Shown: piece by piece, positions 5,609 through 28,349 of the stretch
Numbering within the stretch: position 1 is the stretch's first letter
Layout: every line of letters starts with the position of its first letter
DNA from: Rhizobiales bacterium Ga0077524
Lineage (GTDB): Bacteria > Pseudomonadota > Alphaproteobacteria > Rhizobiales > Hyphomicrobiaceae
Length of the DNA: 36,083 nt
Direction of reading: 5' to 3'
Assembly: GCA_001464755.1 (NCBI GenBank)
Contig: LNDR01000394.1
Coordinates: 1-36,083, forward strand
Program-made: the position numbers and the translations under genes
Notes under the pieces: generated by a model
The model's input: the letters and a program-made list of their open reading frames with translations, nothing else
The model's database searches: none
Told to the model about the DNA's origin: nothing

Positions 5609-5687
5609 GATGCGCGATTTATTAACCATAAGGCGCTCGGCGGCTTTTCGTTCCAGCCTCGGCGCGCAGCCAGTTGGGGGTTCGTTT

Positions 5688-7031
5688 ATGTCGCGTACCA
5701 GTATGCGTATCTGGGCCTCGAGCCTCGCCGCCGCAATGCTACTGCCCGTCTCGGGAGTGCTGGCGGATGTGCCTGCGATCAAGACATCTTCATCGAATAA
5801 GGTCGTCGCGTGCGCCACGCCGGGGCGGCTGATGGCCTATCTCAAATCGCGCAATCCGCAGCTTGATCCGCGGTTCGACAAGATCGCGGTCGAGTACATG
5901 CGTCACGGCGAGACGCTGGGCCTGCGCTGGGACTACGCCTTCTACCAAATGCTTCTCGAGACAGGCCACCTGAGCTTTCGTGGCGATCGTGGACGGCGCG
6001 GCGACGTCAGTCCGCGACAGAACAACTTCGCAGGCCTCGGCGCGACGGGTAATGGCGCCGCGGGAGAGAGCTTCCCGGACGTTTCGACAGGTGTTCTCGC
6101 GCACTTGCAACATGTGCTCGTCTACGCTGGCGAGACAGTCGACGATCCCGTCGCCGACCGCACGCGCAAGGTTCAGGAGTGGGGAATACTGAAGTCGATG
6201 CAGAAGCGCGCCGGTGGCGTCGTCACTTTCCGCCATTTGGCCACCAAATGGGCGCCGGGTGCGGACTATGTTGCCGGCATCTCCGCACTGGCGAGTCGGT
6301 TCGACGAGAGCTTCTGCAACCGCCCCGATCCGAATCCCGAGTGGGTCGCCGAGGCGCGCGGCGCGACCGCAGGCGCTAAGGTTGCCGATCTGGCGCCAGC
6401 CTCGGATCGCGTCTCCGGAGCAGAGCTGGCGAAGCGCGCCATCGCAGACGCCAAGGCCGCTGGCGACGACCGGCGCACCGGCCTGGGCGCGACCGGCTTG
6501 GCGACTGGGATTGCCGCGATGACGGGTGCAACCGGCGGCGGAGGCACCGCCGCCCCGACGCCATCCTATAGCATCCTCAACGCACCCCAGGTCGAGGCCC
6601 CGGTTGAGGCGGCGCCGATCGCTGACGACGACTTTGGACGCGCGAAGTCCAAATCGGCCTCTCGCGGCGAGAAGCCTGGTTCACTGGCCACCGCATCGGC
6701 AGCCGGCGTGTTGGGTGCGTCACCACCGCGTTCACCTGGTGCGCGGAGCGAGCCCGGCGTCTCCGACACCCCTGGCCCCACGGGTGGCAGGAAGTCTGGT
6801 GGGAGGTGCCGCGTTTGGACCGCCAGCTACGGCGGCCATAAAGCGCTGATCATCCGCGTGAATACCGACAAGGGAAGCGATCTCACTGTGCTCGACGTCA
6901 ACGAGGGCGCGGAGCGGCGTGAAGCCGAGGCCTACATCGCGGCCTACGCGAAAGGTGGCCAGATCGAGGCTGAGTTCACGAGCCAGGCCCAAGCGTTGGA
7001 CAAGGCGTTCGAGCTCTGCCCTGAGGGTTGA
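5688..7031 (+). CDS. secreted glucosaminidase (GH73-like) domain protein with variable linker and conserved C-terminal module
   Basis: Signal peptide MSRTSMRIWASSLAAAMLLPVSGVLA; RWDYAFYQMLLETGHLSF…SPRQNNFAGLGATGNGAAGESFPDVSTGVLAHLQHVLVYAG. ORF opens at 5610, but the signal peptide favours 5688. Confidence 0.75.
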   Translation: MSRTSMRIWASSLAAAMLLPVSGVLADVPAIKTSSSNKVVACATPGRLMAYLKSRNPQLDPRFDKIAVEYMRHGETLGLRWDYAFYQMLLETGHLSFRGDRGRRGDVSPRQNNFAGLGATGNGAAGESFPDVSTGVLAHLQHVLVYAGETVDDPVADRTRKVQEWGILKSMQKRAGGVVTFRHLATKWAPGADYVAGISALASRFDESFCNRPDPNPEWVAEARGATAGAKVADLAPASDRVSGAELAKRAIADAKAAGDDRRTGLGATGLATGIAAMTGATGGGGTAAPTPSYSILNAPQVEAPVEAAPIADDDFGRAKSKSASRGEKPGSLATASAAGVLGASPPRSPGARSEPGVSDTPGPTGGRKSGGRCRVWTASYGGHKALIIRVNTDKGSDLTVLDVNEGAERREAEAYIAAYAKGGQIEAEFTSQAQALDKAFELCPEG

Positions 7032-7113
7032 GAGGGGGAGCCGAAGTGAGCGGTCCACATGCGGTTCCGCGACCCGGTTCCGACAAAGGGCCGCTAGCAG
7101 GAGCAAGTTGCCG

Positions 7114-8181
7114 ATGATGTCGCGCCGACACCACGCCAGAACCCCGGCAGCTAAGTGGTTCGTATCGCTTGCGATCCTGCTCGCATTAACCGGCGCGGCC
7201 CCAGTGGCGGCGCAAACGCTCCCGGAAATCAGGATGAGCGAGAGCAACCGCGTGCCGGCATGCGTCACGCCCGCGCGGCTGATGCAGTTCCTGGCCGAGC
7301 GCAACCCGAACATGCCGGTCAAGTTCCGAGGTATCGCCGCCTATTATAAGACACACGGCGAGCGCCACCGGGTGCGATGGGACTACGCGTTCTTTCAGAT
7401 GGTGATCGAGACAAATTACCTCCAGTTTCGAAACGCCAAAGGCAAAGGCGACGTGAGCCCGTCCCAGAACAATTTCGCCGGCATCGGTACGACGGGCGGT
7501 GGCGTGCCGGGCGACAGTTTCCCCGACGTCTCGACCGGCGTGCTTGGCCAGATTCAGCACCTGATCGCCTACTCGGGCGAGCGCGTGGATACGCCTGTGG
7601 CGAAACGCACACGCGAGAAGCAGGATGATATCATTGCAGCCTCGCAGCGCCTGCGCCGCGCCGTGACGTTCCGCGATCTCGCCGGCCGGTGGGCCGTCGA
7701 TCGGCGCTATGCTCGCTCGATCGCCTTCGTGGCGGATGAGTTCACGCAGAAATATTGTACGGGGCGGCAACTCGATCCGGAGCCCGCACCGACGCGGGAG
7801 ACCGAGGCTAGCGCCAAGCCGTCGCCCAGCAGGCCGACCGCGCTGGGTGCCGCTGCCAGGATCGGCGGTGGAACTCCGCGGGCGCCGAACGCCATCTCGC
7901 CTCCGCAGGCAGTCGCGCGGTCGATCCCGTGCAAGGTTTTCACAGCTAGTTATGGGGGCACGAAAAACGTGCTGATCCGTAGGCGTGTCGGCGACGAGAT
8001 GCACTTCACAGTCCTTCAGGTCCTGGAAGGTCGCGAGGCAGGCTTGATCGAAGCCTTCATCCGTTCGCACGCGCAAGGTGGCGAGGCCCTTGGAGAGTTC
8101 GCAACCAGGGACGATGCTTTGACCAGCGCCTTCGATCAATGCCCCGGCGGAGGCACGGGCACGCCGAGTGGGCAGGGCTGA
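7114..8181 (+). CDS. secreted glucosaminidase (GH73-like) domain protein, tandem paralog of the preceding gene
   Basis: RWDYAFFQMVIETNYLQFRNAKGKGDVSPSQNNFAGIGTTGGGVPGDSFPDVSTGVLGQIQHLIAYSGERVDTPVAKRTREKQ aligns with the upstream paralog; shared C-terminal CxV(F/W)TASYGG module. Confidence 0.75.
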   Translation: MMSRRHHARTPAAKWFVSLAILLALTGAAPVAAQTLPEIRMSESNRVPACVTPARLMQFLAERNPNMPVKFRGIAAYYKTHGERHRVRWDYAFFQMVIETNYLQFRNAKGKGDVSPSQNNFAGIGTTGGGVPGDSFPDVSTGVLGQIQHLIAYSGERVDTPVAKRTREKQDDIIAASQRLRRAVTFRDLAGRWAVDRRYARSIAFVADEFTQKYCTGRQLDPEPAPTRETEASAKPSPSRPTALGAAARIGGGTPRAPNAISPPQAVARSIPCKVFTASYGGTKNVLIRRRVGDEMHFTVLQVLEGREAGLIEAFIRSHAQGGEALGEFATRDDALTSAFDQCPGGGTGTPSGQG

Positions 8182-8367: not shown

Positions 8368-9858
8368 ATGTCGACCATGGCTCGGGATGATTGCCAAATG
8401 GCAGAAGATGTAGCGCCGGACGGCACGCGGCGCCTCGGGCTTGTCGCCGGGATCGCAGTCGCGGCTGTCATGCTGGTGGCGCCGCCGCCAGCCGGCCTCT
8501 CCGCGGAGGGGTGGGCAGCTGCCGCCGTCGCAGTCGTAATGGCGGTCTGGTGGATGACGGAGGCGCTCCCGATCGCCGTCACAGCGCTGCTGCCGGTCGC
8601 GCTTTTTCCGCTGCTGAGCGTTGCCACCCCGGAGCAAGCGACGCGACCGTACGCCGATCCGCTGGTCTTGCTTCTCTTGGGTGGCTTCATGCTGGCGAAG
8701 GCAATCGAGCGTTGGTCGCTGCATGAGCGTCTCGCCGGGGCATTGACGCGGTGGAGCGGGGAGCAGCCGGCCGCAAAGGTCGGCGCGCTGATGGCTGCGA
8801 CGGCATTTCTGAGCATGTGGGTCAGCAATACCGCCTCGGCGATGGTGATGCTGCCGATCGGTGTGGCGGTCGCCACGGCGATGGACGCGCATCTGCAGGG
8901 TGCCTCGGATCTCGAGCGAACCGACGCGAGGGCTGCCATCATGCTGGGCGTGGCCTATGCTGCAACGATCGGGGGCATGGCCACGCTCGTCGGCACGCCG
9001 CCGAACGCTTTGTTTGCCGCTTATATGGCCAATGCGCACGGCATCAACATCGGTTTTTCTGACTGGCTCATGGTGGGGCTGCCGACGTCACTCGTGCTCC
9101 TGGCAGTGACATGGATCGTGCTGACGCGAGTTGCATTTCACCTGCCTCGCGTCGCACTGACGGCAGGGCGTGATCCTTCGCTTGAGGTAGCTGCGGCCCC
9201 CGGTCCACTCTCCAGTGAGCAAGTGCGCGTCTTATGGATCGCGGCTGCGGCAGCACTGGCTTGGACGTTGACCCCCTTCATCCGGCGCCTGGTGCCGTCG
9301 CTCGAGATCTCGGACGCGGGCATCGCAATCACAGCGACGCTTGCGCTGTTCGTGACGCCGTCTGCACCAGGAAGCCGACGGCCTTTGCTCGTCTGGGACG
9401 ACGTCATCACGATCAAGTGGGACGTTCTGATTCTCGTTGGGGGCGGCTTGGCACTGGCGCACGGCATCGGCGCCTCGGGGCTGGCGCGATGGATCGGCGA
9501 GAGTGTCGGCGGGCTACGTCACATTCCACTGCCCGTCTTGACTGTGCTCGCGATGATCGCAGTTGTGTATCTGGGGGAGCTTGCGAGCAACACGGCCGTT
9601 GCCGCTATCTTCTTGCCCGTCGCTGGAGCGGCAGCTATCGGCCTGGGCGAAAATCCGATCGCCATGACACTCCCGATCGCGATGGCGACGTCGCTTGGGT
9701 TCATGCTGCCGGTTGCGACACCACCGAATGCGATCGTCTACGCGAGCGGAATGGTGAGCAGCGGACAAATGCTGCGCGCAGGGGCAGTTCTCGACGCTGT
9801 CAGCATAGCCGTTGTGGCGATGATTGCGCTGTCACTCGGTGCCTGGGCGCTCAGGTGA
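8368..9858 (+). CDS. DASS family (SLC13-type) sodium:dicarboxylate/anion symporter
   Basis: Multi-TM; WWMTEALPIAVTALLPVALFPLL, SNTASAMVMLPI, GTPPNALFAAYM, ELASNTAVAAIFLPV, PVATPPNAIVYASG motifs. Confidence 0.9.
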   Translation: MSTMARDDCQMAEDVAPDGTRRLGLVAGIAVAAVMLVAPPPAGLSAEGWAAAAVAVVMAVWWMTEALPIAVTALLPVALFPLLSVATPEQATRPYADPLVLLLLGGFMLAKAIERWSLHERLAGALTRWSGEQPAAKVGALMAATAFLSMWVSNTASAMVMLPIGVAVATAMDAHLQGASDLERTDARAAIMLGVAYAATIGGMATLVGTPPNALFAAYMANAHGINIGFSDWLMVGLPTSLVLLAVTWIVLTRVAFHLPRVALTAGRDPSLEVAAAPGPLSSEQVRVLWIAAAAALAWTLTPFIRRLVPSLEISDAGIAITATLALFVTPSAPGSRRPLLVWDDVITIKWDVLILVGGGLALAHGIGASGLARWIGESVGGLRHIPLPVLTVLAMIAVVYLGELASNTAVAAIFLPVAGAAAIGLGENPIAMTLPIAMATSLGFMLPVATPPNAIVYASGMVSSGQMLRAGAVLDAVSIAVVAMIALSLGAWALR

Positions 9859-9866
9859 AAGAAAAC

Positions 9867-9893
9867 GGCCAACCTCCTTTGACGAGGCTGGCC
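9867..9893 (-). terminator. putative terminator for the minus-strand gene at 9936-10202, between convergent genes
   Basis: Near-perfect inverted repeat GGCCAACCTC-CTTTGAC-GAGGCTGGCC; on the minus strand it is followed by GTTTTCTTTC. Confidence 0.6.
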
Positions 9894-9935
9894 GACTGTC
9901 GCGCAGGGCTTGCGGTGCGAGATCGTCCGCTCGCG

Positions 9936-10202
9936 TCAGGCCGCCGCCTTCTTGCGAACGGTTGCGCGGTTGCGGGAAAGTTCGGCTGCGATCATCTCTA
10001 CGGCCTTGTCCCAAGTCGCGTCGACGGGCGCGGAAAGGCCGACGGCGGCAAGGGCGTCGGTGGCGCGGCCGCCATCCCGGAAGACGCGGGCCGAGATTTG
10101 ACGGGCGAGACCGAGGGACTGTTGCCAGAGGATCGGATTGACGTGAGCGGGGGTCTCATCGTCGCTCGACCTGAGCGAGGCGTGATCGAATTGGATGACC
10201 AT
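9936..10202 (-). CDS. small hypothetical protein (about 88 aa)
   Basis: MVIQFDHASLRSSDDETPAHVNPILWQQSLGLARQISARVFRDGGRATDALAAVGLSAPVDATWDKAVEMIAAELSRNRATVRKKAAA; adjacent terminator-like hairpin supports a real minus-strand gene. Confidence 0.55.
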   Translation of the reverse strand: MVIQFDHASLRSSDDETPAHVNPILWQQSLGLARQISARVFRDGGRATDALAAVGLSAPVDATWDKAVEMIAAELSRNRATVRKKAAA

Positions 10203-10605
10203 GGGAGCTTGCCTCTCTGCTTGACTCTGTTCTGATGCGACGCCGCAGTGGACAGTGCCGGCAAGCGCTTCGAGCTGGGTGACAGCTCTACGCGGGACCG
10301 TGCTATGAGCTGCTATCGGGCTACCTTTCGGTGCCAATAGCTCAAAGCGCTTGCCGTTCCTTGGGAGTGGCGGGGGGACGCCACTCCGTTATTCTGCTGG
10401 CACGGCGAAGGGGATTGTCTCCGGCCGTTCGCCGTCTTCCTCACGGAGGATCGGGGACACATTCGACGCGACGCCACAACGGAATGCAACGAGACCCAAC
10501 ACACTGCCCGTAGCCTCACCGAGCGATCGCCAGCCCGGGGATCCGGACCCACTTGTCAACTCTCGGGGGAAAGAGACGACATTCGAGGCCACAGTTAGAA
10601 TTCCT

Positions 10606-11331
10606 TCAGTGAGCAGCACGGGCACGACGCGTGCCCAAACGCGACGGACACAACGCGGACGCTACAGGGACGGACGCACCAGACGCGGACGAGACGCTAC
10701 GAAACAAGCGCGACTTCGATGCAGGCAACGCGACATCACGCAACTCGGACGCGACCGACACAACCAACTCGGACCTTGACCCAACCGTAAACAACGCGAC
10801 GCAACGCGATAACGATGTTGCGGAAACGACGCTCCGCGACGAAGCATCCTCGAGCCGTCGCCACCTACGCGAAACCTTGGCGGCGGCGGCTCGCCGCACG
10901 AGTGCCTTCAGCACGAGAGGGAGCGTGCTCGAAGGAAGCTCATTGCGGGCCGACGCTGACGCTGTCGACTGGGACGCTGACACAACGCGATACCGATACG
11001 CAAAGGACTGGGACGCGGCACTCTGGGACGCTGACGCAACGAACTCGGACTCTGACGCCACTGAACGAGACGCTGACACTACTGACTGGGACGCAATACT
11101 ACCGATACGCCGACCTACGCCACGCAACACACTCAACGCACGCTGGACCGAGATGCGCTGGTCCTTGACCGCCACACCGCCGCACCGGGCGGAGTACAAC
11201 TTGCTGGACGCCTCATCACCTGCGGCCGCTACGCCGGCCATACTCACGCCACGCAGAAACAGAACCTCGGCAGGTGTCGGACTGCCCTTACGCGTTACGC
11301 TGGGCATCCGGCGGCGACTGATGACTTCCAT
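10606..11331 (-). CDS. questionable ORF encoding a low-complexity Ser/Ala/Val/Arg-rich product; possibly non-coding
   Basis: Open frame with ATG at 11331 and an SD-like GAGGGAGG about 9 nt upstream; product contains SASQSVVSASRSVASESEFVASASQSAASQS. No family recognised. Confidence 0.2.
   Translation of the reverse strand: MEVISRRRMPSVTRKGSPTPAEVLFLRGVSMAGVAAAGDEASSKLYSARCGGVAVKDQRISVQRALSVLRGVGRRIGSIASQSVVSASRSVASESEFVASASQSAASQSFAYRYRVVSASQSTASASARNELPSSTLPLVLKALVRRAAAAKVSRRWRRLEDASSRSVVSATSLSRCVALFTVGSRSELVVSVASELRDVALPASKSRLFRSVSSASGASVPVASALCPSRLGTRRARAAH
10626..11140. repeat. low-complexity degenerate GAC/ACG-type repeat tract with strong A/C skew on the + strand
   Basis: GACTGGGACGC occurs at 10967, 11006 and 11084, a TGGGACGCTGAC variant at 11024, and TACCGATACG at 10991 and 11100. 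Hand count of 10741-10800: A20 C24 G11 T5. Confidence 0.7.
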
Positions 11332-11542
11332 GATCCGGTGCCTCCCTCGACCTCGCGTTCGGCGCGTCGCCGCGTCATCCGCGAACGAGTGTTAATAAAC
11401 AGTTGCTGCGTGGCGACATGGTGACGAATTCGCGATTTGATTTCGGTTTTTTGCTTGACGGCTGTTCATAAAGTCACCGCGCGCCCCTGAATCAGGGGCT
11501 TTGCCAGCTGAATCCGCTGCTCGAAGGTTGCGGTCGAATCGC

Positions 11543-11551
11543 TGTGGATAA
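11543..11551 (-). promoter_or_regulatory. exact DnaA-box consensus (TTATCCACA on minus strand)
   Basis: TGTGGATAA at 11543-11551; TGTTCATAA (11463-11471) and TGTTAATAA (11390-11398) are weaker look-alikes. Confidence 0.35.
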
Positions 11552-11558
11552 CTTGGAT

Positions 11559-12083
11559 TCAGCGCATCCTGCACGACGCGGCAAAGGCCGCCTGCAACGC
11601 AGCAACGAAGATCATGAAGGAGCCAATCACATTCCACCCGGCAAACGACATGCCGAGGAAGCGCCACGCCGCCTCATCGCACCGCACGACGCGGGCCTTC
11701 GCGAGGTCGTCCAGAAGATTGCCCCCGCCAAGCGGCTTCAGCGTGCCACTTGGCTGAGCGCAAGTGTCTGGCCCGAGCCAGAATTTCCATTCGACACCGG
11801 CGTGGTAGGTTGCGAGGCCGGCGTTCGCGAGGAAGGCGAGTGCAACGGCTAGGAACAGCAGGGCAGCGGCCCTCGGATACTCGGCCGCGACGAGAACCAG
11901 CGCCAGGAACAAGACTGGGATGCCAGCGTAGAAGGCGTAGCGCTGCTGCAGGCAAAGAGGACACGGCTCGAGCCCGCCGAGATGCTCGAAGCCGAGCGCT
12001 GTAAGAATGGCTATCACCGCAAGCCCCAGCGCAAAGCCGCCGACGCGGTAGGCTGGATCTGACTCGGCGGCAACGCGGGACAT
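11559..12083 (-). CDS. dsbB: disulfide bond formation protein B
   Basis: Four-TM protein with GLEPCPLCLQQRYAFYAGIPVL (CxxC) and a second Cys pair region (DTCAQPSG…RCDEAAWRFLGMSFAGWN). Confidence 0.85.
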   Translation of the reverse strand: MSRVAAESDPAYRVGGFALGLAVIAILTALGFEHLGGLEPCPLCLQQRYAFYAGIPVLFLALVLVAAEYPRAAALLFLAVALAFLANAGLATYHAGVEWKFWLGPDTCAQPSGTLKPLGGGNLLDDLAKARVVRCDEAAWRFLGMSFAGWNVIGSFMIFVAALQAAFAASCRMR

Positions 12084-12109
12084 CGAAGCGACCAATCCGG
12101 CTGGGGATC

Positions 12110-12721
12110 TCAGAGCAGGAAGCGCAGGGCCACAAAACCACCGAAGAGCAGCACGAGAAACACCGTCAGCAAAAGACCCAGGCGCTTCTCGATGAAGACG
12201 CGGATCGGCTCGCCGAACCAGTAGAGGAGAGCGGCGACGATGAAGAACCGCAGCCCTCGTGACGCGATGCTGGCGACGATGAACACGATGATGTTCAGAC
12301 TTGTTGTGCCGCTCGCGATGGTAATGACTTTATAGGGAAACGGAGTAACGCCGGCAAAAAACACGATCCAGGCGCCCCACTCATTGTAGTGGCTGGAAAA
12401 CTCTTTGAATTTACTGCCATAACCATAAAGCTCGAGGAGCGGCTGACCGACTGCGTCGAACAGAAAGTAGCCTATGGCGTATCCGGCCACGCCACCGAGG
12501 ACCGACGCGACCGTGCACAAGGCCGCATAGAACCAGGCACGGGCTCGCTTGGCCAGCACCATGGGTACCAGCATGACATCCGGCGGAATGGGAAAGATAG
12601 AACTCTCGATGAACGAGACGGCGAACAGCGCCTCAGGGGCCCGCTTGTGGCCCGCCATACCCATCATCCAGTCGTAGGCCGCTCTGATCATGGCCGGGTG
12701 AATACGAAAGGCCCCAATCAC
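12110..12721 (-). CDS. DedA/VTT-domain (YqaA-like) membrane protein
   Basis: FIESSIFPIPPDVMLVPMVLA…GGVAGYAIGYFLFDAVGQPLLELYG…FFAGVTPFPYKVITIASGTTSLN signatures. Confidence 0.85.
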   Translation of the reverse strand: MIGAFRIHPAMIRAAYDWMMGMAGHKRAPEALFAVSFIESSIFPIPPDVMLVPMVLAKRARAWFYAALCTVASVLGGVAGYAIGYFLFDAVGQPLLELYGYGSKFKEFSSHYNEWGAWIVFFAGVTPFPYKVITIASGTTSLNIIVFIVASIASRGLRFFIVAALLYWFGEPIRVFIEKRLGLLLTVFLVLLFGGFVALRFLL

Positions 12722-12775: not shown

Positions 12776-13465
12776 TCAGTCGCGATGTAGCCTGCGGCGC
12801 AACAGGACATAGAGGGCACCTTCTCCGCCGTGGCGGGGAGCTGCAACCTGGCAGCTGATGACCAGCGTGCGGAGCGGCGCCTCGGCAAGCCAGCGTGGCA
12901 CGCTACGCCGGAGAACACCGACGTCCTCGTCCTCCCGCCAGCCACCACGGAGCGCGGACGGTTGGCGGCTCGCGCCCTTGCCGGTGATGATGAGGACGGT
13001 GCGAAGACCTTGGGCGGCGGAGCTTTGCAGGAAGCTGACGAGGCGGCCGTGCGCTATGGTTTGAGTGAGGCCATGAAGATCCAGCCGGGCCTCGATCTCG
13101 ATGTTGCCGGAGGCGATGCGGCGGGCTTTGCGGCGGTCGACTGCCGGCACGGCTGAGGGCGACAGGGAGTAGGAGACGGCTGGTGGTCGCTGCCCTGGGC
13201 CTTTGATGGGTCGGCCTGGGAAAACCGGAGGCTCTTGCGCTCTAGTGGGCTTCGGTGGGTGTAGGCGTGACGCCATGTGCGCTGGCATTTCTGGTCTTGA
13301 CGGCAGCGAGCCGGTCGGCGCGGCCTCGACGTCTGGAACGCGAGGCTTGCCTTGCCGACGCGGATCAATCGTAGCTGCGATGCGCTGCCAGAGCGACGTA
13401 TCCTCGGGCGTGAGCAGGGGCCTCGGTCCCCGCTTCGGCGGGTGATCTCGGCCCGAGCCGGTCAT
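12776..13465 (-). CDS. Smr/MutS2-C domain protein
   Basis: EARLDLHGLTQTIAHGRLVSFLQSSAAQGLRTVLIITGKG…GVLRRSVPRWLAEAPLRTLVISCQVAAPRHGGEGALYVLLRR: Smr domain; adjacent to mltA as is typical. Confidence 0.9.
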   Translation of the reverse strand: MTGSGRDHPPKRGPRPLLTPEDTSLWQRIAATIDPRRQGKPRVPDVEAAPTGSLPSRPEMPAHMASRLHPPKPTRAQEPPVFPGRPIKGPGQRPPAVSYSLSPSAVPAVDRRKARRIASGNIEIEARLDLHGLTQTIAHGRLVSFLQSSAAQGLRTVLIITGKGASRQPSALRGGWREDEDVGVLRRSVPRWLAEAPLRTLVISCQVAAPRHGGEGALYVLLRRRLHRD

Positions 13466-14847
13466 CGCCCGCGAGGCCCGTGACTAGGCGAACCTTTGGT
13501 GGTCGCAGGCGCTGCGTCCGAGGCGCCGCCAGGTTCTTTGGCGATCAGGACGAAGAGGTTGCCCGGATGACGTACCGTTCCCGCCTGCCGTTCGGCCGTC
13601 TCACCCGAGCCGAAATAGATGTCGCCGCGCTCCGGACCCTTGATAGCGCTGCCGACGTCGTGGGCGACCATGAGGCGATTGAAAGGGACCTTGTGTCCGT
13701 TGGGGGTAAGACTTGGCGCGCTGACGTAGACTAGGCGACCCAGGCGATGCACACCGGGATCGATGGCAAGCGAGCGGCCGGCCACCAGTGGCACCTGGAT
13801 CGCGCCAAGTGGGCCACTGGCATCGGGCGGCATCTCGCGGAAGAACACGTAGGATGCGTTTTGGTTCATGATTGCGCGTGCACGCTCGAGATCGGACTTC
13901 AGCCAGCGACCGAGAGCCCCCATCGACATCTTGTCGGCCGCGAGCAAGCCTTTGTCGATCAGATAACGGCCGATCGACGTGTAGGGATGGCCGTTCTTAC
14001 CGTCGTATTGAACACGCACGGACGTCCCATCTGTGAGGCGAATTTGACCAGAGCCCTGGATTTGCAGAAAGAATTTCTCGACCGGGTCGGTGAGATAGAG
14101 AATCTCGAGATTCTGTCCCGCAAGCGCGCCCGCGTCGATCTCCGCTCTCGTCGCGAACGGAACCAATCCAGCCGCCGTGCGCCGCGCATGCGTAAGACTA
14201 CCAGGGGCGGCGCCGCGGGTCTCAGGGACGATCGTGACCAGGTCGGCAGGGCGCTTGAATAGGGGTGATTGGAAGCGGCCCTCCCGTGTCCGAGACCCCT
14301 CGATCACGGGCTCGTAGTAGCCCGTGAGGAGGCCATCCGAGCCTTGGTGGACGATGCGATGGGGCTGGAAATGCTGCTCGAAAAAGGCGCGAGCCGAGAC
14401 TTTCGTCGGCTTCTGCAAGGCGAGGGCGGCCGAGCACGCAGCCGGTAAAAGGTCGACATCTGGCCCGCTGGCTCTTCCAGCTTTGCCGGCGATAACCAGC
14501 GGGCACGAGGCGAGGAAAGCCTTCAATGCGGCCAAGTGGTCGTCGTCCGCCCAGCCGGTCAGATCGGCAAAGACGACAGGGGCGAGGCTGTGCGTGTTCA
14601 TCTTGGCAGAGGACCTGTCGCGTTCGCGTTTTGCTCCGAATTGCGGGACTGACACAGGAGGTGCTTGCGGCGTCGGCGCAACCGTCGGGACGCTCTGTCC
14701 GGGCGGGCGCGGGGCCGGAGCGAGGGAGCCGGTCGTTGCAGGCACGGTTTCCACAGACCAGCCACCAGTCGCGACCGGTTCGCGCGCCGCGGATCCGCCG
14801 GCCCACGTCCCCGCGGCAACGACGCATACGACTCGGCTCGCCAGCAT
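13462..14847 (-). CDS. mltA: membrane-bound lytic murein transglycosylase A
   Basis: LLTGYYEPVIEGSRTR, FFLQIQGSGQIRLTDG, YDGKNGHPYTSIGRYLID, AHDVGSAIKGPERGDIYFGSG (MltA + 3D domain). Confidence 0.9.
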   Translation of the reverse strand: MLASRVVCVVAAGTWAGGSAAREPVATGGWSVETVPATTGSLAPAPRPPGQSVPTVAPTPQAPPVSVPQFGAKRERDRSSAKMNTHSLAPVVFADLTGWADDDHLAALKAFLASCPLVIAGKAGRASGPDVDLLPAACSAALALQKPTKVSARAFFEQHFQPHRIVHQGSDGLLTGYYEPVIEGSRTREGRFQSPLFKRPADLVTIVPETRGAAPGSLTHARRTAAGLVPFATRAEIDAGALAGQNLEILYLTDPVEKFFLQIQGSGQIRLTDGTSVRVQYDGKNGHPYTSIGRYLIDKGLLAADKMSMGALGRWLKSDLERARAIMNQNASYVFFREMPPDASGPLGAIQVPLVAGRSLAIDPGVHRLGRLVYVSAPSLTPNGHKVPFNRLMVAHDVGSAIKGPERGDIYFGSGETAERQAGTVRHPGNLFVLIAKEPGGASDAAPATTKGSPSHGPRGR

Positions 14848-15003
14848 GACGATATGCCAGCGGCACCTATAGTTGCCGCAATCCCCCAAAAGTCGGCCCC
14901 CAATGTCCATCGACGCCCCGCCGGTAGCCGAACTCGCATCGACCGGGCCTTGCAAACGCAAATGCTTGGGAGCGCTTTCCAGTGAGGCGCCCCAGCGCCG
15001 TCC

Positions 15004-15741
15004 TTAGCCTGGGGCTTGGGTCGCGACCAGCTTCCAATTCGGATCCCGTGAGCCGATGTCGCGCGCAAACGTCCAGATGTCGATGACCTCTTTGATCCGC
15101 TTCGGATCGCCAGCGATGACGGTGCCTTCGCGATCCCGGGTCGCGGAGATGAGCTCGCTCGCGAAGCGAACCGTGACGTGAGCCATTCCGCCTTTCAGCT
15201 CGGCCTCGACGATGTCGGCCTTGTTGATGCCAACGAAACTCTGATCGATCTGCTCGCCTCGGCTTTCGCGGTCGGTAAGGGCCGCTGAGAACCCTTCGAA
15301 AACGTCCTTGCTGAGCAGACCCTTCAGGGTCTTGCTGTTGGCCTCGGCAAAGGCCGTCACGATCATTTCGTAGGCTTGGCGCGCTCCGACCAGGAAATGC
15401 TCGGGATCGAAGCTGGAATCGGCACGCGCCACCGACATCAGGCCGTCTGCCAGCGGCTCGTTACCGGAAGCAAGCGTGCGCACCTTCTCCTCGATGTCCG
15501 CCGTCGCTGCGGCAGCTGCCGCCTTTTCGGGGGCTGCCTCCGGTCGGTCCCGGCGCGGCAACGTTACGATCTTGTCTTGCCCCTGGCCAGCTGCAGCGCG
15601 TGCCCGCTGCTCGGCCTTGTAGCGCTCGACTCGGGCATCGTCCTCACTGCTCTTGCGGCCCAGCACGCTGCGTAGCCGCAGGATGATGATGACCGCCAGA
15701 ACGAGGAAAAGCAGCGTGAAGATGTCGATTTTGCCGTCCAT
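15004..15741 (-). CDS. Tim44-like (TimA family) adaptor/domain protein
   Basis: N-terminal TM MDGKIDIFTLLFLVLAVIIILRLRSVLGRKSSEDD and Tim44-like C-terminus (FLVGARQAYEMIVTAFAEANSKTLKGLLSKDVFEGFSAAL…WTFARDIGSRDPNWKLVATQ). Confidence 0.9.
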   Translation of the reverse strand: MDGKIDIFTLLFLVLAVIIILRLRSVLGRKSSEDDARVERYKAEQRARAAAGQGQDKIVTLPRRDRPEAAPEKAAAAAATADIEEKVRTLASGNEPLADGLMSVARADSSFDPEHFLVGARQAYEMIVTAFAEANSKTLKGLLSKDVFEGFSAALTDRESRGEQIDQSFVGINKADIVEAELKGGMAHVTVRFASELISATRDREGTVIAGDPKRIKEVIDIWTFARDIGSRDPNWKLVATQAPG

Positions 15742-20476: not shown

Positions 20477-21646
20477 CTAGATCTCCAGCCGCTCCCGGAT
20501 CGCCGAGAACATCTTGGCGCGGCGCTCCATGCCGATGCCGGGCGTGTCGTGCGGACGCGTGAAGCCATCGACGATCGCGATGTCGTCGGCAAAGCCGCCG
20601 TAGGGCTGGAACACACCGGGATAGCTCTCGGTGCCGCCGAGTTGCAAGCCCGCTGCCATGTTGAGCCCGAGCTGATGGCCGCCATGCGGTACCGTCCGCC
20701 GCCGCGACCAGCCCATAGCCTCGCTCGCGTCGAGAATGCGCAAGGTCTCCGTCAGGCCGTAGTCCAGCGACGGGTCGGGCTGCAGCCAATCCTTGTGCGG
20801 GCGCAGGCCGCCATGACGAAGTAGGTTCTTGAAATCTTGCAATGAGAAAAGGTTCTCGCCCGTCGCCAGCGGAATGGCGCTCTCCTCGGCAATGACTTGA
20901 TGCGCGAGATAGTCGAGCGGATCGACCGGCTCCTCGAACCAGCACAGCCCATAGGGCTCCATCGCCTTGGCGTAGGCCAGTGCGTCGGCGAGCGAGAGCC
21001 GTCCATTGGCGTCGACGGCAAGGTTGTCGCCGCCGCCCGCGATCTCCAGTGCCCACTCGATTCGCTTCAAGTCCTCGGCGAGGGAAGCGCCGCCGATCTT
21101 CATCTTGAGCAGCTTGTAGCCGGCGGCCTTGCAGGCCTTCATCTCGTCCTGCAGTCCCTGCTTTTCCTTGCCCGGATAGTAATAGCCGCCACCGGAGTAG
21201 ACCAGCACTTGGCTATCCGCCTTGCCGCCGTTGAAGCGCTCGGAAAGGAGCTTCCACAGCGGCTTTCCCGCAATTTTGGCGACCGCGTCCCAGACCGCCA
21301 TGTCGATGGCGCCGGCGGCAACAGCGCGGTCGCCATGCCCGCCTGGCTTCTCGTTCGAGAGCATCGCCTTCGAGACGGCGAACGGATCGAGATTGTCGGA
21401 TGACTTGTCGAGCAGCGTTGACGGGTCGGCCTCGAGGATGCGCGGCGCGAGGCGCTCGCGGATGATGCCGGACTGCGCATACCGCCCGTTCGAGCAGAAA
21501 CCGTATCCGACGACCGGCTTGCCCTCGCGCACCACGTCCGTCTCGACGGCAACGACCGAGATGGTCATCTTGTCGAACGAGATGACGGCATTGCGCATCG
21601 GGCTCGGGATCGGCGCCGCGGCGTCGCGGATGCGGGTGATTTTCAT
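20477..21646 (-). CDS. enolase-superfamily (mandelate racemase/muconate lactonizing) dehydratase, D(-)-tartrate dehydratase-like
   Basis: KMKIGG (KxK), AVDANG, CWFEEPVDPLDY, ATGENLFS and TVPHGGHQLGLN catalytic-type motifs; overall resembles Bradyrhizobium D-tartrate dehydratase as recalled. Confidence 0.8.
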   Translation of the reverse strand: MKITRIRDAAAPIPSPMRNAVISFDKMTISVVAVETDVVREGKPVVGYGFCSNGRYAQSGIIRERLAPRILEADPSTLLDKSSDNLDPFAVSKAMLSNEKPGGHGDRAVAAGAIDMAVWDAVAKIAGKPLWKLLSERFNGGKADSQVLVYSGGGYYYPGKEKQGLQDEMKACKAAGYKLLKMKIGGASLAEDLKRIEWALEIAGGGDNLAVDANGRLSLADALAYAKAMEPYGLCWFEEPVDPLDYLAHQVIAEESAIPLATGENLFSLQDFKNLLRHGGLRPHKDWLQPDPSLDYGLTETLRILDASEAMGWSRRRTVPHGGHQLGLNMAAGLQLGGTESYPGVFQPYGGFADDIAIVDGFTRPHDTPGIGMERRAKMFSAIRERLEI

Positions 21647-21766
21647 TGTCTTTGACCCTTCAGTTGCCCACGCGGCAACCGGGCCGGTGGATGCAGCGCG
21701 CGGCGCCCGTGTGAGCGTGAGAGCGCTGCTTTTATCGAGCCGCGATACACGTCTCGAACAAGACTA

Positions 21767-21828
21767 GGACCGGAGCCTGCCGCCCACTCCCTCGTCCCCC
21801 GAGTTGGGCTGGTGGCAGGCTCCGGTCC
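21767..21828. other. long perfect inverted repeat (15-bp stem, 32-nt loop) in the intergenic gap between two minus-strand genes
   Basis: GGACCGGAGCCTGCC … GGCAGGCTCCGGTCC, with a partial inner stem GCCCACTC/GAGTTGGGC. Weak T-tract, so terminator or attenuator is uncertain. Confidence 0.6.
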
Positions 21829-21850
21829 CTCGCGCGCAACGAGGCACGCC

Positions 21851-23074
21851 TCACGCGCTGCGATAGAGCTTCGTAAGTGAGAACTCCCGATGACCGAGCG
21901 CCTCGGCCGCCGTCAGTCGCCCGTTTGCGGTGCGGATGATCATGTCGATCAACGCATCGCCGGCCATGTCGAGTGTCTGCTCACGGCGCAGGATGCCGGT
22001 CACGTCGACGTCGATGTGCTCCCCCATCGTGCGCAATGTCTTCGGGTTAGCCGAGATTTTGATGACAGGCACGATCGGGTTGCCGATGACGTTGCCCTGA
22101 CCAGTCGGGAAGGTGTGCACCACCCAGCCACCGGCCGCCATCAGGGTGACGCATTCGGCGGCGGCCGACGATGTGTCCATGTAGTAGAGGCCGTTGCCCT
22201 TCTGCGGCTCCTCCGCCGGGCCCAGCACGTCGATATAGCGGCATTCGCGGCCGATCTTCTCGAGATTGCCGAGCGCCTTCTCCTCGATGGAGGAGAGCCC
22301 GCCTGCGATGTTGCCCTTGGTTGGTTGGCTTTCCGACAGGTCATCGACCTTGTTGGCCTCGATCACCTCCTGCTGGTAGGCATTCCAGACCTTGTACCAC
22401 TTGTCGCCGATCTCCTTTGAGATCGCCCGCTCGCGGGCGATGTGCTCGCCGCCGGTGATCTCGCTGGTCTCGCCGAAAACGCCGGTAACGCCCTTGGGGA
22501 TCAGCTTGTCGTACATGTTGCCGACCGTCGGGCAGGAGCCGAGGCCGGTCGTGGTGTCGGATTCACCGCACTTGGTCGAAACCCAGAGTTCGTCGATAGA
22601 GCATTGCTCGCGCTTGAGCTCGGAGGCCCACTGTACGAATTCCTTGGCCTTGTAGGAGGCCTTGGCAATGATCGCGATGTCGCCGTGCCCTTCGATGCCG
22701 AAACCGACCACAGGCTTGCCGGTCTTCGCGATGCCTTGCACCACGCGATCTGTCCAGCCGTCCTCGATGCCGATCACGACCACAGCGGCGACGTTTGCAT
22801 TCGAGCCGGTGCCGATCAGCGTGCGGAAGTGCAGATCGAGATCGGCACCGAACTGCAGGCGGCCGTAGGCGTGCGGGATTGCGAGCGTGCCCTTGATGTT
22901 GTTCGCCACTGCCTCGCAGGCGGAGTTGGACAGATCGTCGAGCGGAAGGATGAGGACGTGATTTCTCACGCCCACGCGCCCGTTTTCTCGGCGCCATCCC
23001 CAGAACGACAGGTTATCGAGGCTTGTAGCCGTCGGTGCGGACTTGGCCGCCTTTTTCGCTGCTGGCTTTGCCAT
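21851..23074 (-). CDS. UxaA family lyase, large subunit (altronate dehydratase / (2R)-sulfolactate sulfo-lyase SuyB-like)
   Basis: [74 protein letters not shown]…[21 protein letters not shown]…[11 protein letters not shown]…[19 protein letters not shown]. Confidence 0.85.
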
Positions 23075-23088
23075 GGTCTCGTCTCGCC

Positions 23089-23379
23089 TCACCAGCGCTT
23101 TGTTCTGTGATTGTGGATGTGGACATGTTCGCCGGTATTGGCGCTGCCCACCATGCGGCCGACGTCGGCCCCGTACTTGATGACGGTGTCGCCTTCCTTC
23201 AGCTCGGTCAGCGCCACTTTGTGGCCAATAGGGATGTCCTGCTTGGCGGTGACGCGAATGGTGGTGTTGGTCTCGGTGATGACGCCGAGCATGTCAGTGC
23301 CGGCCTTGAGATCCTCGACCACGACGACGCCGACGTTGTCCTTGGGGCTATGCACCAGGAATTGTGGAATGTTGGACAC
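23089..23379 (-). CDS. UxaA family lyase, small subunit (SAF domain; SuyA-like)
   Basis: 96 aa: [24 protein letters not shown]…[52 protein letters not shown]. Confidence 0.85.
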
Positions 23380-23570
23380 GCGCTTCCTCTTCGAGGTGTT
23401 TTTTGAACCATCATGAGCCTATGCCCCCGTGACGGCGGTGGCCAGTGCGACGAAATGAGGGGAGCGGAGCAATCGGCGTGAATGGCGGACTGTAGACCGC
23501 TCCCTGGCGCGGCGACAACCGATTGCCGGAGCTTGAACGCCACGCGCGCGATCACACTTCGTTACGAGTT

Positions 23571-24533
23571 CTAACCGCCCGCCACGCCCTGCACCTGCAC
23601 ATAGAGTGCATAGACCGACGTCGACGCCGCCATGAATAGGCGGTTTCGCTTCAAGCCTCCAAAGCACAGGTTGGCGCAACGCTCGGGCAGCAGAATATGG
23701 CCGATCGCCTTGCCGTCAGGGGCGAAAATGCGAACCCCGTCGAGTGCGGGATCGCCCATTCCCCAGCCGCACCACAGGTTGCCGTCCTCGTCGCAGCGCA
23801 TGCCGTCCGGTGTGCCCGGGCCGGCGTCGATATGGACGCGCCGGTTGGCGATGCGCGTGCCGCCGTCGATCACATCCCAGGCCGTTATCAGCCGAGTGGG
23901 CGCAGCACGCGATTCCACGATGTAGAGGGTCTTCTCGTCGGGAGAGAAGCAAAGGCCATTGGGGCCTGGTACGATGTCGGTAAGCATCGTCGCCTTGCCG
24001 GTCGCGGGATCGAGACGATAGACGCACATCGGCAACTCGGGCTCGGCCTTCTCGCCCTCGTAGTTGCCGAGCAGGCCGAAGGCCGGGTCTGTGAACCAGA
24101 TCGAGCCGTCGGATTTCACCACCACATCGTTCGGCGAGTTGAGACGCTTGCCCTCGAAGCGGTCCATCAGGACGGTGATCGATCCATCGTACTCGGTGCG
24201 AGTGAGGCGCCGTCCGTGCTCGCAGGTGACGAGGCGGCCCTGCCGGTCGCGGGTGTTGCCGTTGGCCCAGTTGGAGGGTTTGCGGAACACCGACACCGCG
24301 CCGGTCTCCTCCTCCCACTTCATAATGCGGTTGTTCGGAATGTCGCTCCAGAGGAGGTAGCGGCCATCGCCAACCCACACCGGACCCTCAGCCCAGCGGA
24401 ACCCCGTCGCGATGCGCTCGACCGCGGAAAGCTTGATCCAATACTTCTCGAAGCGAGGATCGAAGGCCTGGATCGCGGGATCGGGATAGCGAGGCGCGTG
24501 GCTGCGCCAGCCGTTGGGATAAAGGTCGGTCAT
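23571..24533 (-). CDS. SMP-30/gluconolactonase/LRE family protein
   Basis: EGPVWVGDGRYLLWSDIPNNRIMKWEEETGAVSVFRKPSNWANGNTRDRQGRLVTCEHGRRLTRTEYDGSITVL…LNSPNDVVVKSDGSIWFTDPAFGLLG…. Confidence 0.9.
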   Translation of the reverse strand: MTDLYPNGWRSHAPRYPDPAIQAFDPRFEKYWIKLSAVERIATGFRWAEGPVWVGDGRYLLWSDIPNNRIMKWEEETGAVSVFRKPSNWANGNTRDRQGRLVTCEHGRRLTRTEYDGSITVLMDRFEGKRLNSPNDVVVKSDGSIWFTDPAFGLLGNYEGEKAEPELPMCVYRLDPATGKATMLTDIVPGPNGLCFSPDEKTLYIVESRAAPTRLITAWDVIDGGTRIANRRVHIDAGPGTPDGMRCDEDGNLWCGWGMGDPALDGVRIFAPDGKAIGHILLPERCANLCFGGLKRNRLFMAASTSVYALYVQVQGVAGG

Positions 24534-24629
24534 TCGAGCCTCTCGGGGCAAATGGGCATCGCCATCAGCCTGCGCCCACAATCGGCACTGTTCAAGTTGC
24601 AAGGCGCCGGGGGCCATCGGCTCTGCGCA

Positions 24630-25712
24630 TTAGGTGGGAACGTGGGGGCGCCCTGCGCGACATCTCATCAGCGGCTGGACGCGCCGACCAAACGCATCGA
24701 GGCCAATCAGGAAGTCGTCGAAGGTGAGCATGATGCCCTTGACGCCAGGCATGGTCGCAGCCTCGTCGAGCATGCGTGCGCAGTTCTCATAGGAGCCGAC
24801 GATCGTCCCCATGTTGAAGTTGATCGGCGAGGCGGATCGCGAGATGGCCGATGCCGTCGAGGTCTCTGTGAGATTGGGATCCTCGGCCGCCTTGCCGATG
24901 AGGTGGGCGAGCGCCTCGCGATCCGCGCCCCGGTTATAAAGATCCCATTTGGCGAGGGCGGCCTGGTCGGTCTCCTCGGCGATGACCATGTAGAGCATGT
25001 AGGCGCCCACATCGCGCCCGGTCTTCTCGGCGTGCGCCTTGACCCGGGCCGGCACGCCCGCAGCTTTTGTCGGCTCATTGACGCCCTCGCCGAGGCAGAA
25101 ATTGTACTCGCACCACTCGGCCGCGAACTCCATGCCGCGGTCCGACTGCCCTGCCGACACGATCTCGATGCGCCGCTTGGGTCTCGGAGACAGGACACAT
25201 TTCTCCATCTGGAAGTATTCGCCCTTGAAATCGGAAACGCCGGTCTCCCAGAGATCGCGCAGAATGCGCACGTATTCCGTGCTGTAGTCGTAGCGGGTTC
25301 CGAAATACTGGTCGCCCGGCCAAAGCCCCATCTGCGTGTACTCGGGCTTGTGCCAGCCGGAGACGATGTTGACGCCGAAGCGCCCGTCAGACACGTCGTC
25401 GATTGTCGACGTCATGCGCGCCACGATCGCAGGCGGTAGCGTGAGCACGGCGGTGGACGCAAAAAGCTTGATCCGGCTCGTCACCGACGCCAACGACGCC
25501 ATCAGCGTGAAACTTTCCAGGCCGTGATCCCAGAACTCGGTCTTGCCGCCAAAGCCATGCAGCTTGATCATCGAAAGTGCGAAATCGAAGCCATAGGCCT
25601 CGGCTTTCTGAACCACCGCCTTGTTCAGTTCGAAGCTCGGCATGTATTGAGGCGAGGTGGCCGAGATGATCCAGCCGTTGTTATTGATCGGAATGAAAAC
25701 GCCGACGTCCAT
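24630..25712 (-). CDS. LLM class flavin monooxygenase, RutA (pyrimidine monooxygenase)-like
   Basis: [100 protein letters not shown] closely resembles RutA as recalled. Confidence 0.85.
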
Positions 25713-25871
25713 GGGTGATCCTCTTCGCTACGCAGCCGCATCGTACCTGCAATTGCCGAGCTGATCTGCCTGCAAAATTGCTGGTTGATTCGACAAGATG
25801 ACCGATCGCGCATCACGATAGAGTAGGGTGTGCAGCGCGCGAGGGCGCCGTTACGGGAAAGGCCAAGCACC

Positions 25872-26669
25872 ATGCGTCTCAGGGACAGGATCGCCATCGT
25901 CGTCGGCGGAGGGCAGCAGCCGGGCGAGACCACCGGCAACGGACGGGCCGCGTGCCTCAGGTTCTCGGAGGAAGGCGCGACGGTGCTTGTCGTCGACAGC
26001 AACCAGGAGTGGGCAGAGAGCACCGTCCGGATGATCACCGACAAAGGAGGCAAGGCGTCCTCCTTAAAGGCGGACATCACGCGCGAGGCCGACTGCAAAG
26101 CGATCGCCGACACCTGCATCGAGCGCTACGGCCGCATCGACGTGCTACACAACAACGTCGGCCGGGCACGGGGCGACAGGGGAACGGTCGAGCTCGAGGC
26201 CGAGATGTGGGACGAGCTGATGGCCCTCAACATCCGCGGCATGTTCCTGACCATCAAGCACGTGCTGCCGGTGATGCGCCGCCAGCGCTCGGGCGCGATC
26301 GTCAACATCTCGTCGACCTCATCAATTGCCGCCGGGCCGATGCTCACGTACCGCGTCTCGAAGACGTCCGTGAATTCGCTGACGCAGCACGTTGCCATAG
26401 AGAATGCTCCGCACGGCATCCGCTGCAACGCGATTCTGCCGGGGCTGATGAACACGCCCATGGCCATCGAGCGCCGCGCGCGGGAACGCAACGTTTCGCG
26501 CGATCAGGTGCGGTCCGAGCGCGCATCTCAGGTGCCGCTGGCAGTGGCCGAGGCCGGCAACGCATTCGACGTCGCCAACGCAGCTGTGTTTCTCGCCTCC
26601 GATGAAGCGCGCTACATCACGGGCGTCCTCTTGCCGGTCGACGGCGGGTTGCTACTGAAGATCGGGTGA
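25872..26669 (+). CDS. SDR family oxidoreductase
   Basis: IAIVVGGGQQPGETTGNGRAACLRFSEEGATVLVVDSN… (unusual nucleotide loop), HNNVGRA, SSTSSIAAGPMLTYRVSK, ITGVLLPVDGG. Confidence 0.85.
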   Translation: MRLRDRIAIVVGGGQQPGETTGNGRAACLRFSEEGATVLVVDSNQEWAESTVRMITDKGGKASSLKADITREADCKAIADTCIERYGRIDVLHNNVGRARGDRGTVELEAEMWDELMALNIRGMFLTIKHVLPVMRRQRSGAIVNISSTSSIAAGPMLTYRVSKTSVNSLTQHVAIENAPHGIRCNAILPGLMNTPMAIERRARERNVSRDQVRSERASQVPLAVAEAGNAFDVANAAVFLASDEARYITGVLLPVDGGLLLKIG

Positions 26670-26692
26670 GCGGCGCATTCAGTTGGGGCGGC

Positions 26693-27481
26693 TCAATCGA
26701 AAGCCGCCTCCACCGCGCCCAGAACGCCGAACTCTGCACACGCGCTCTGGCCGGCCCTCACGGCGTCGAGACCCGTGCAGGTTCCAGTCGAGACGATCTC
26801 GCCGGCCTTCATGCCTCGGCCCCGTTTGCTCTGCTGATTGGCGAGCCAGACCATCACGGCCAGCGGGTCGCCGAGCGCGCGGGCGCCAGTGCCATGACCA
26901 CACTGTTGGCCGTCGATCGTCATGGTCACCGGGAGCGCCTTCAAATCCAGCGCGCGCCAATCGGTGGTCCATCGCCCCACGACCAACGCGATGTTGACGC
27001 CGAAATCAGCCGTCGAGAGAAAGCGCCCGATATCGGCGAGCCCACCCCCGATGCGGCTGCCGACCACTTCGATCGCGCCAGCCACGGCATCGACCGCATC
27101 GGCGACCTCGGCGTAGGTGTAGGGCACGTCGCGCGGTGGAAGATTGCGCCCCAAGCGAAACGCTATCTCGCCCTCGAGTTCGGCGTTGTGACCGGCGACG
27201 AGCGCGACCCGAGCAGGGCTTTCGTGGACGTAAGGTGCAAGCAGTGGGGCAGACCCGGGCTCTGTCGTCCCAAGCTTCTTCTGCGCCTCCACGCTGGTCG
27301 AGCCCACCTTGAACCCACGGGTCGCGAGGCCCGTGAGCCGGACCGCCTCCGCCTGCACGGCATACGCCTCCTCCGCCCCGGCAGGCGCGGCCAACGAGCC
27401 CCGGGGCAGCACCCTGCCGTCGCGACGGGCTTCCCAGAGTTGACGAGCGAGATCGTTCACAGCATGTACTCCAACGTCCAC
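26693..27481 (-). CDS. 2-keto-4-pentenoate hydratase / fumarylacetoacetate hydrolase-family protein
   Basis: RGFKVGSTSVEAQKKLG…PLLAPYVHESPARVAL…AELEGEIAFRLGRNLPPRDVPYTYAEVADAVDAVAGAIEVVGSRIG…GDPLAVMVWLAN…GMKAGEIVSTGTCTG. Confidence 0.85.
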   Translation of the reverse strand: MDVGVHAVNDLARQLWEARRDGRVLPRGSLAAPAGAEEAYAVQAEAVRLTGLATRGFKVGSTSVEAQKKLGTTEPGSAPLLAPYVHESPARVALVAGHNAELEGEIAFRLGRNLPPRDVPYTYAEVADAVDAVAGAIEVVGSRIGGGLADIGRFLSTADFGVNIALVVGRWTTDWRALDLKALPVTMTIDGQQCGHGTGARALGDPLAVMVWLANQQSKRGRGMKAGEIVSTGTCTGLDAVRAGQSACAEFGVLGAVEAAFD

Positions 27482-27482
27482 T

Positions 27483-28349
27483 TCAATGGCCTTTCTCGAC
27501 GGTCGCGCGCTCGACCGCCAGCATGGCCTCGAGGCCGATCGTCTCGCGCACGATCTCCTGTTCGGCTTTTGCGCCGCCGCGACCGAGGTTGGGCGGCGGC
27601 TCGCCCTTGGCCATCGCCACGTAGCACTCGCGCAGGGCTTTGTGCATGGCCATCAGCGGCGTCGAGGCATCGCAGACCAGCCAGTAGCCAAGACGCCCCA
27701 GGTCGTCGAGCGATAGGCCGGTCGCCGCTCGACCGTCGTCGGACAGCAACAGCATCAGCGGGCCGCCAAGCTTCTCGCCGATTGTCGCCACCTGGTCGGG
27801 CGTCTTGGCGAGCACGTAGATCATGTCGGCACCGGCCTTCCGGTAGGCCTCCGCGCGGTGCAAGGCCTCGTCGAGGCCGTGCATGCGCGCGGCGTTGGTC
27901 CGGCCGATGATGACCGTCTCGGGATTGCGGCGCGCGGCGACACACTCCTTGATCTTCGCCACCATCAGCTCTTTAGGAATGATGTGCTCGATGCCGATGT
28001 GATGATGCGCCCGCTTCGGAAGGATCTGGTCCTCGATCTCGATGGCAGAAAAACCTGCCGCCTCCGTCATGCCGATAGTGCGGTGCATGTGCATGGGATC
28101 GCCAAAGCCGCAGGCGCCGTCGAGGATCAGCGGCAATGGCGAGACCGCGCGGATATCGAGCGCCGCCTGGCACATCTCGGAAATGTTCAGGTTCGCCTCC
28201 GTCACGCATTTCATGTACCCGCTCGAGCCACCGCCGAGGTAGGCCGCCTTGAAGCCTGCAGCTTCAGCGAGCTTGGCCATGATCGGGTTCAGCACCAGAG
28301 GTGCCAGCAGCGGCTTCGGTCCGGCGATCATCTCGCGGAATGTGGCCAT
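27483..28349 (-). CDS. isocitrate lyase/PEP mutase superfamily protein lacking the KKCGH-type motif
   Basis: AAGFKAAYLGGGSSGYMK, LPLILDGACGFGDPMHMHRTIGMTEAAGFSAIEIEDQILPKRAHHHIGIEHIIPKELMVAKIKECVAARRNPETVIIGRTNA. Confidence 0.85.
   Translation of the reverse strand: MATFREMIAGPKPLLAPLVLNPIMAKLAEAAGFKAAYLGGGSSGYMKCVTEANLNISEMCQAALDIRAVSPLPLILDGACGFGDPMHMHRTIGMTEAAGFSAIEIEDQILPKRAHHHIGIEHIIPKELMVAKIKECVAARRNPETVIIGRTNAARMHGLDEALHRAEAYRKAGADMIYVLAKTPDQVATIGEKLGGPLMLLLSDDGRAATGLSLDDLGRLGYWLVCDASTPLMAMHKALRECYVAMAKGEPPPNLGRGGAKAEQEIVRETIGLEAMLAVERATVEKGH

Follow-up and report, generated by a model that had tools for sequence, protein, structure and literature searches.

The stretch between positions 10606 and 11331 of the window (the whole 36,083 nucleotides of DNA analysed here) raises the question of what a strongly skewed, degenerate repeat island holding no recognisable gene might be. 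The original prediction offered four possibilities: a decayed repeat protein, a fast-evolving orphan gene, a noncoding RNA or a structural DNA element. The features on which it was built were recovered, with GACTGGGACGC at 10967, 11006 and 11084, TGGGACGCTGAC at 10970 and 11024, TACCGATACG at 10991 and 11100, a composition of A20 C24 G11 T5 over 10741-10800, and an AT skew with a maximum of +0.56 over 10600-10799 that falls back to the level of the flanks on either side. Tandem Repeats Finder, proposed at the time as a check, returned only weak short arrays (scores 43 and 74), so that the pattern comes from a dispersed motif and not from repetition in tandem. This motif can be written as the pentamer GHGTH (H being A, C or T), and its strand asymmetry at 10601 (37:1 in favour of the minus strand, per 600 nt) is the highest in the window: the strand difference there is 36, where the mean over the window is 1.0 (sd 5.3). 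The skewed stretch therefore exceeds chance. The element itself is larger than the reported 10606-11331, running from about 11473 down to 10260, and its informative strand is the minus strand; the folded domain, the conserved neighbours and the family-wide distribution described below were missed in the first reading. A mobile or multi-copy repeat was also considered and rejected, as the element is present as a single copy in its own genome, a draft of 5.1 Mb.

Read along the minus strand, the locus has the order dsbB, promoter-like block, repeat body, P0 hairpin, folded domain, gene X. The first of these, dsbB (11559-12095; disulfide bond formation protein B, Pfam PF02600, E 1.6e-31), is the same-strand upstream neighbour in most relatives. 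Comparison of 5' regions delimited the conserved promoter-like block (11373-11473), which contains GTCAAGC followed by GTTTATTAACACTCGTTCGCGG, and motif density delimited the repeat body (about 10400-11372). The P0 hairpin (10364-10387) lies directly upstream of the folded RNA domain (10260-10355), the gap between them being usually about 8 nt across loci, and the domain is linked to gene X (9936-10202), which encodes a small helical orphan protein of 88 aa; all of these features are on the minus strand. No tRNA or tmRNA was found at the locus. Elsewhere in the window, Smr-domain, MltA and Tim44-like genes follow one another on the minus strand (12776-15741), a block that is presumably origin-proximal in some alphaproteobacteria. 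Positions 20477-28349 hold an apparent sugar-acid catabolism cluster (MR/MLE enolase-like, altronate/galactarate dehydratase, SMP-30 gluconolactonase, luciferase-like monooxygenase and PEP mutase-like genes), and an overlapping pair of open reading frames at 5610-8181 has weak, sub-threshold glucosaminidase matches.

The two long open reading frames of the original prediction, a SAS-rich frame on the minus strand (10606-11331, 241 aa) and a D-rich frame on the plus strand (10631-11395, 254 aa), are indeed present, and we judge both to be noncoding. In pairwise comparison with the sister genome G003, five flanking genes (X, dsbB, and VTT-domain, Smr-domain and transporter genes, with mltA left out because its comparison was out of frame) gave dS values of 0.89-1.10 and dN/dS ratios of 0.04-0.19, whereas the minus-strand frame (dN 0.176, dS 0.232) and the plus-strand frame (dN 0.163, dS 0.194) gave ratios of 0.76 and 0.84. 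The 241-aa frame thus bears no mark of purifying selection on its codons when set against these five neighbours, and its substitutions fall evenly over the codon positions (41/34/44). It speaks against a noncoding reading that both frames are also open in G003, an outcome with a chance of about 7% for each under neutral substitution, and that the longest frame exceeds 95% of shuffles in 10 of 41 loci; in most of the 41 it is no longer than in shuffled sequence (median P 0.21). Among 90 relatives the minus-strand protein has one convincing homologue, in G003, and one further match at 24% identity, and neither frame matches a Pfam family. A likeness to frames of G016, G006 and G002, seen by eye, was rejected: it appears to reflect a short DNA similarity around PAEVLF and failed a genome protein search. 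The substitution pattern and the missing homologues led us to reject a protein-coding reading of either strand. Since the island has a pseudo-dS of about 0.2 as against about 1.0 in the flanks, and carries no codon signature, the nucleotide sequence itself is constrained. Its rate of change is some four- to fivefold below that of synonymous sites nearby, as would be expected of functional noncoding sequence. That the unit is an RNA gene or an RNA leader, and not a gene for a protein, is very probable.

The pentamer array fills the body of this unit. Over 41 loci the predicted transcript strand carries 1333 copies of GHGTH and the opposite strand 88, many copies of one motif on the transcript strand being also a feature of decoy RNAs of the CsrB/CrcZ type; within 10356-11345 of the window the counts are 48 minus and 3 plus. 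All-pairs GHGTH spacing has a period of 5.1 nt, and in the general form of the motif positions 2 and 5 are rarely G. The longer word GTTGCGT was found 222 times in the repeat bodies of the 41 loci (12.8 expected from shuffles) and once on the opposite strand; over the whole gaps the counts are 230 on the dsbB strand and 1 opposite, and pair spacings peak near 10, 20-21 and 30-31. In 35 loci, motif density is 5.6/kb from the dsbB stop to the promoter-like block, 43.9/kb (3.1/kb in reverse) from there to the domain, 21/kb in the interval before X and 6.8/kb within X. Five genomes lack the dsbB neighbour; there the array still fills about 700 nt upstream of the domain, with background beyond. The unit accordingly comprises promoter block, array, domain and X, and is no appendage of dsbB. 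In structure prediction the repeat body of the window folds no better than its shuffled versions (fold z +0.69). At one locus, in G033, the body is an expanded tandem array of GAGTT, which suggests that the pentamer unit can grow by slippage. A possible complementarity of GACGCAACG to a segment of 16S rRNA was also considered.

A structured end to this array is indicated by the alignment of the domain (45 sequences, about 92 nt), which consists of a 9-bp P1 closing stem, P2 and a hairpin and scores 68 bits with our model R1 in the window. RNAalifold predicted 22 pairs, 18 of them with compensatory changes. When a structure of 21 pairs was scored over 941 cells, pairing stood at 97.0% (82.8% shuffled) and double changes at 181 cells, as against 54.1 (sd 8.7) in shuffles; sliding one partner by 1-3 columns lowers pairing to 23-51%. 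Compensatory changes thus exceed both shuffled and slid controls, as in a structured RNA, and G-U pairs are tolerated. The P1 stem was demanded when segments were chosen, so that P1 counts partly by construction, while P2 and the inner hairpin were free of that requirement. For a possible further stem, P3, lying after P2 and before the hairpin, pairing barely exceeded that of shuffles (4.07 against 3.77 bp), and this stem is not claimed. P0 and the domain together have a fold z of -7.0 in the window. The GU-N3-GCGU positions of the apical loop are invariant, and the structured part therefore presents the core of the array itself. Rfam covariance models gave only a chance miRNA match outside the element for 9800-12600 of the window (E up to 1) and no match in 10 relative loci (E up to 0.5). 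We claim membership in no named RNA family.

A 1001-base query found one strong homologue, in G003 (82% identity, E 1e-292), where the island is flanked by the same neighbours, and the remaining matches were short. Searches with DsbB and X showed that the order dsbB, gap, X is kept in most genera, with gaps of 0.7-1.5 kb across 41 loci. Model R1 matched 52 of the 90 relatives, each with a single copy, in close agreement with X. It recovered the domain in 18 of 298 genomes drawn evenly from the order, all in Hyphomicrobiaceae or six neighbouring families, and in the window's own genome only in a draw of the class (n = 385), these two draws having been searched with stricter filters that lose weak matches. 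The unit is found once per genome in most sampled Hyphomicrobiaceae and in a few neighbouring families. G001, of the same genus and listed as 100% complete, has neither dsbB nor the RNA domain, and its X match is spurious; the unit seems to have been lost there in its entirety, which would make G001 a natural knock-out. No account of the locus came up in searches of the openly accessible literature. Gene X is strongly conserved at about 70 residues in relatives, with a dN/dS of 0.07 between the window and G003, and is predicted to form three main helices (pLDDT > 90 in much of the core). It has no convincing match by sequence or fold in Pfam, NCBIfam or the PDB (best Foldseek E 2.5).

The 5' end of the unit offers a possible view of its control. 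Transcription is predicted to start near 11385 on the minus strand, at a TTCGCGGAACA element, and positions 11360-11419 are 95% identical to G003. The block has no clear sigma-70 -35/-10 pair, which speaks against the RNA-gene reading. Most loci have a second conserved element (11450-11473; GTCAAGC, then A-rich) some 70 nt before the predicted start; read on the complementary strand, it looks like a TTGAC -35 box directed towards dsbB. A GAAC-N7-GAAC box, of the LexA type of alphaproteobacteria, was found in the gap of 25 of the 41 loci, which are orthologous and so do not count independently, and nearly always lies over the predicted start; other GAAC spacers occur in at most one locus each. 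The two GAAC halves are nevertheless kept where the bases between them differ, and the same box stands upstream of recA in G004, G012 and G021 (3 of 11 recA loci). GAAC/GTTC LexA motifs are in use for Alphaproteobacteria (PMC6473078). The box may point to induction by DNA damage (SOS control) in the relatives that bear it. It has been lost from the window and its two closest relatives, G003 and G002, and is missing from several other genera, and so damage control is not claimed for the window. Just past the dsbB stop codon, at 11543-11553, we noted a DnaA-box-like TTATCCACA (CTGTGGATAAC on the plus strand), and in 15 of the 41 loci this sequence or a near-match stands no more than 140 nt from where dsbB stops.

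We propose, with a probability of about one half, that the island makes up the repeat body of a gene, about 1.1 kb in length and read on the minus strand from about 11385, for a long noncoding RNA, or else of an exceptionally long untranslated leader of X; most likely it belongs to a previously unrecorded RNA gene common to many Hyphomicrobiaceae. In this model the unstructured array would offer dozens of closely set single-stranded sites to one putative RNA-binding protein, which would load in steps of about 5 nt, reading GHGU. The P0 hairpin and the folded domain would provide a stable 3' anchor and a high-affinity entry site, and the RNA would act as a decoy or scaffold for its putative protein, with X possibly co-transcribed and possibly a partner. 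This decoy or scaffold mechanism is put forward tentatively, at a little under even odds. We infer the transcription, the noncoding status of the transcript and the GHGU-reading protein alike. It is more doubtful that the unit defines a new class of long noncoding RNA, in which a GHGUH array (period about 5.1 nt) with a covarying 3' domain, paired with X, serves as a track for protein polymerisation or titration and is tied to DNA damage in many genera.

The closest rival would make the repeats and domain a very long 5' untranslated region of X, acting only in cis on X expression, be it by attenuation, at translation or through the stability of the RNA. As a rule the domain stops some 40-110 nt short of the X match, and it is linked to X; the two are co-directional with no terminator spotted by eye between them, and the moderate motif enrichment persists as far as X. 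However, 0.5-1 kb with dozens of motifs is far beyond the needs of a cis switch, and in G024 and G040 the domain sits 456 and 198 nt upstream of X. We regard a leader with no role in trans as unlikely, though less so than the readings that follow.

An oriented protein-binding array in double- or single-stranded DNA, serving a replication, segregation or recombination factor, with the folded part extruded as single strands, would account for the single orientation of the motif, for a spacing of about half a helical turn together with the GTTGCGT pair distances, and for the DnaA-box-like sequence that follows dsbB at no more than some 100 nt in several loci. A promoter-like start and a covarying end with tolerated G-U pairs are, however, RNA-like, and we consider this reading improbable. 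As to the structural DNA element of the original prediction, the motif is strand-specific, has a promoter-like block on one side and a covarying RNA domain on the other, and recurs in the loop of that domain, all of which makes a purely DNA-structural reading less likely. Most improbable is a fast-evolving or dual-coding orphan protein in the minus-strand frame, with GAGGGAGG as its ribosome-binding site. That frame is open in both the window's genome and G003, its ATG and ribosome-binding-site-like sequence are conserved, and indels of 15 and 3 nt keep the frame; but divergence is uniformly low, the dN/dS ratio and even codon positions are those given above, the convincing homologue is confined to G003 among 90 genomes, and many genera have no long frame that stands out. 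Of the four possibilities first raised, the noncoding RNA thus gains support, while the decayed repeat protein and the orphan gene lose it for want of codon-phased substitution.

If the unit is transcribed, a large RNA gene runs through most of a bacterial family and is in no RNA-family library searched. A dense, strand-specific pentamer array with a folded anchor predicts a protein for which GHGU is the site, met at intervals of five nucleotides; the discovery of such a protein would define a novel RNA-binding code, and possibly a novel alphaproteobacterial regulator as well. The locus also illustrates that conserved RNA can hide in sequence that fails gene finding and simple repeat finding alike.

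Several known systems resemble this candidate RNA in part. OLE, GOLLD, ROOL and HEARO are likewise long, conserved and apparently noncoding RNAs with covarying structure; unlike them, the present element has no Rfam match and is structured at its 3' end only, the rest being a degenerate array of short motifs. Candidate RNAs restricted to Rhizobiales have been described as flg-Rhizobiales, Rhizobiales-1 and Rhizobiales-2 (PMC2864571). The first and last have Rfam accessions and gave no match here, while Rhizobiales-1, having no accession, lies outside the Rfam comparison. The targets of TRAP have a unit of about 5 nt with short spacers, and the GAGTT tandem array of G033 resembles their repeats. 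TRAP recognises 11 (G/U)AG repeats (PMC4027176), whereas the main unit here is GCGUN rather than GAG or UAG, with dozens of units and a folded domain. TRAP itself was rejected as the binder, since PF02081 was found in 0 of 40 genomes (a Bacillus subtilis control was positive), the window's own genome being a draft of 88% completeness. CrcZ, RsmY/RsmZ and CsrB are, like the RNA proposed here, noncoding RNAs with many copies of a protein-binding motif. CrcZ is intergenic, 407 nt long and carries A-rich motifs for Hfq (PMC8395346); the present element differs in its length of about 1.1 kb, its GHGUH arrays, its covarying 3' domain, its lineage and its putative partner. By analogy, the element would work most like the protein-decoy RNAs exemplified by CrcZ, with a spacing of sites like that of TRAP targets.
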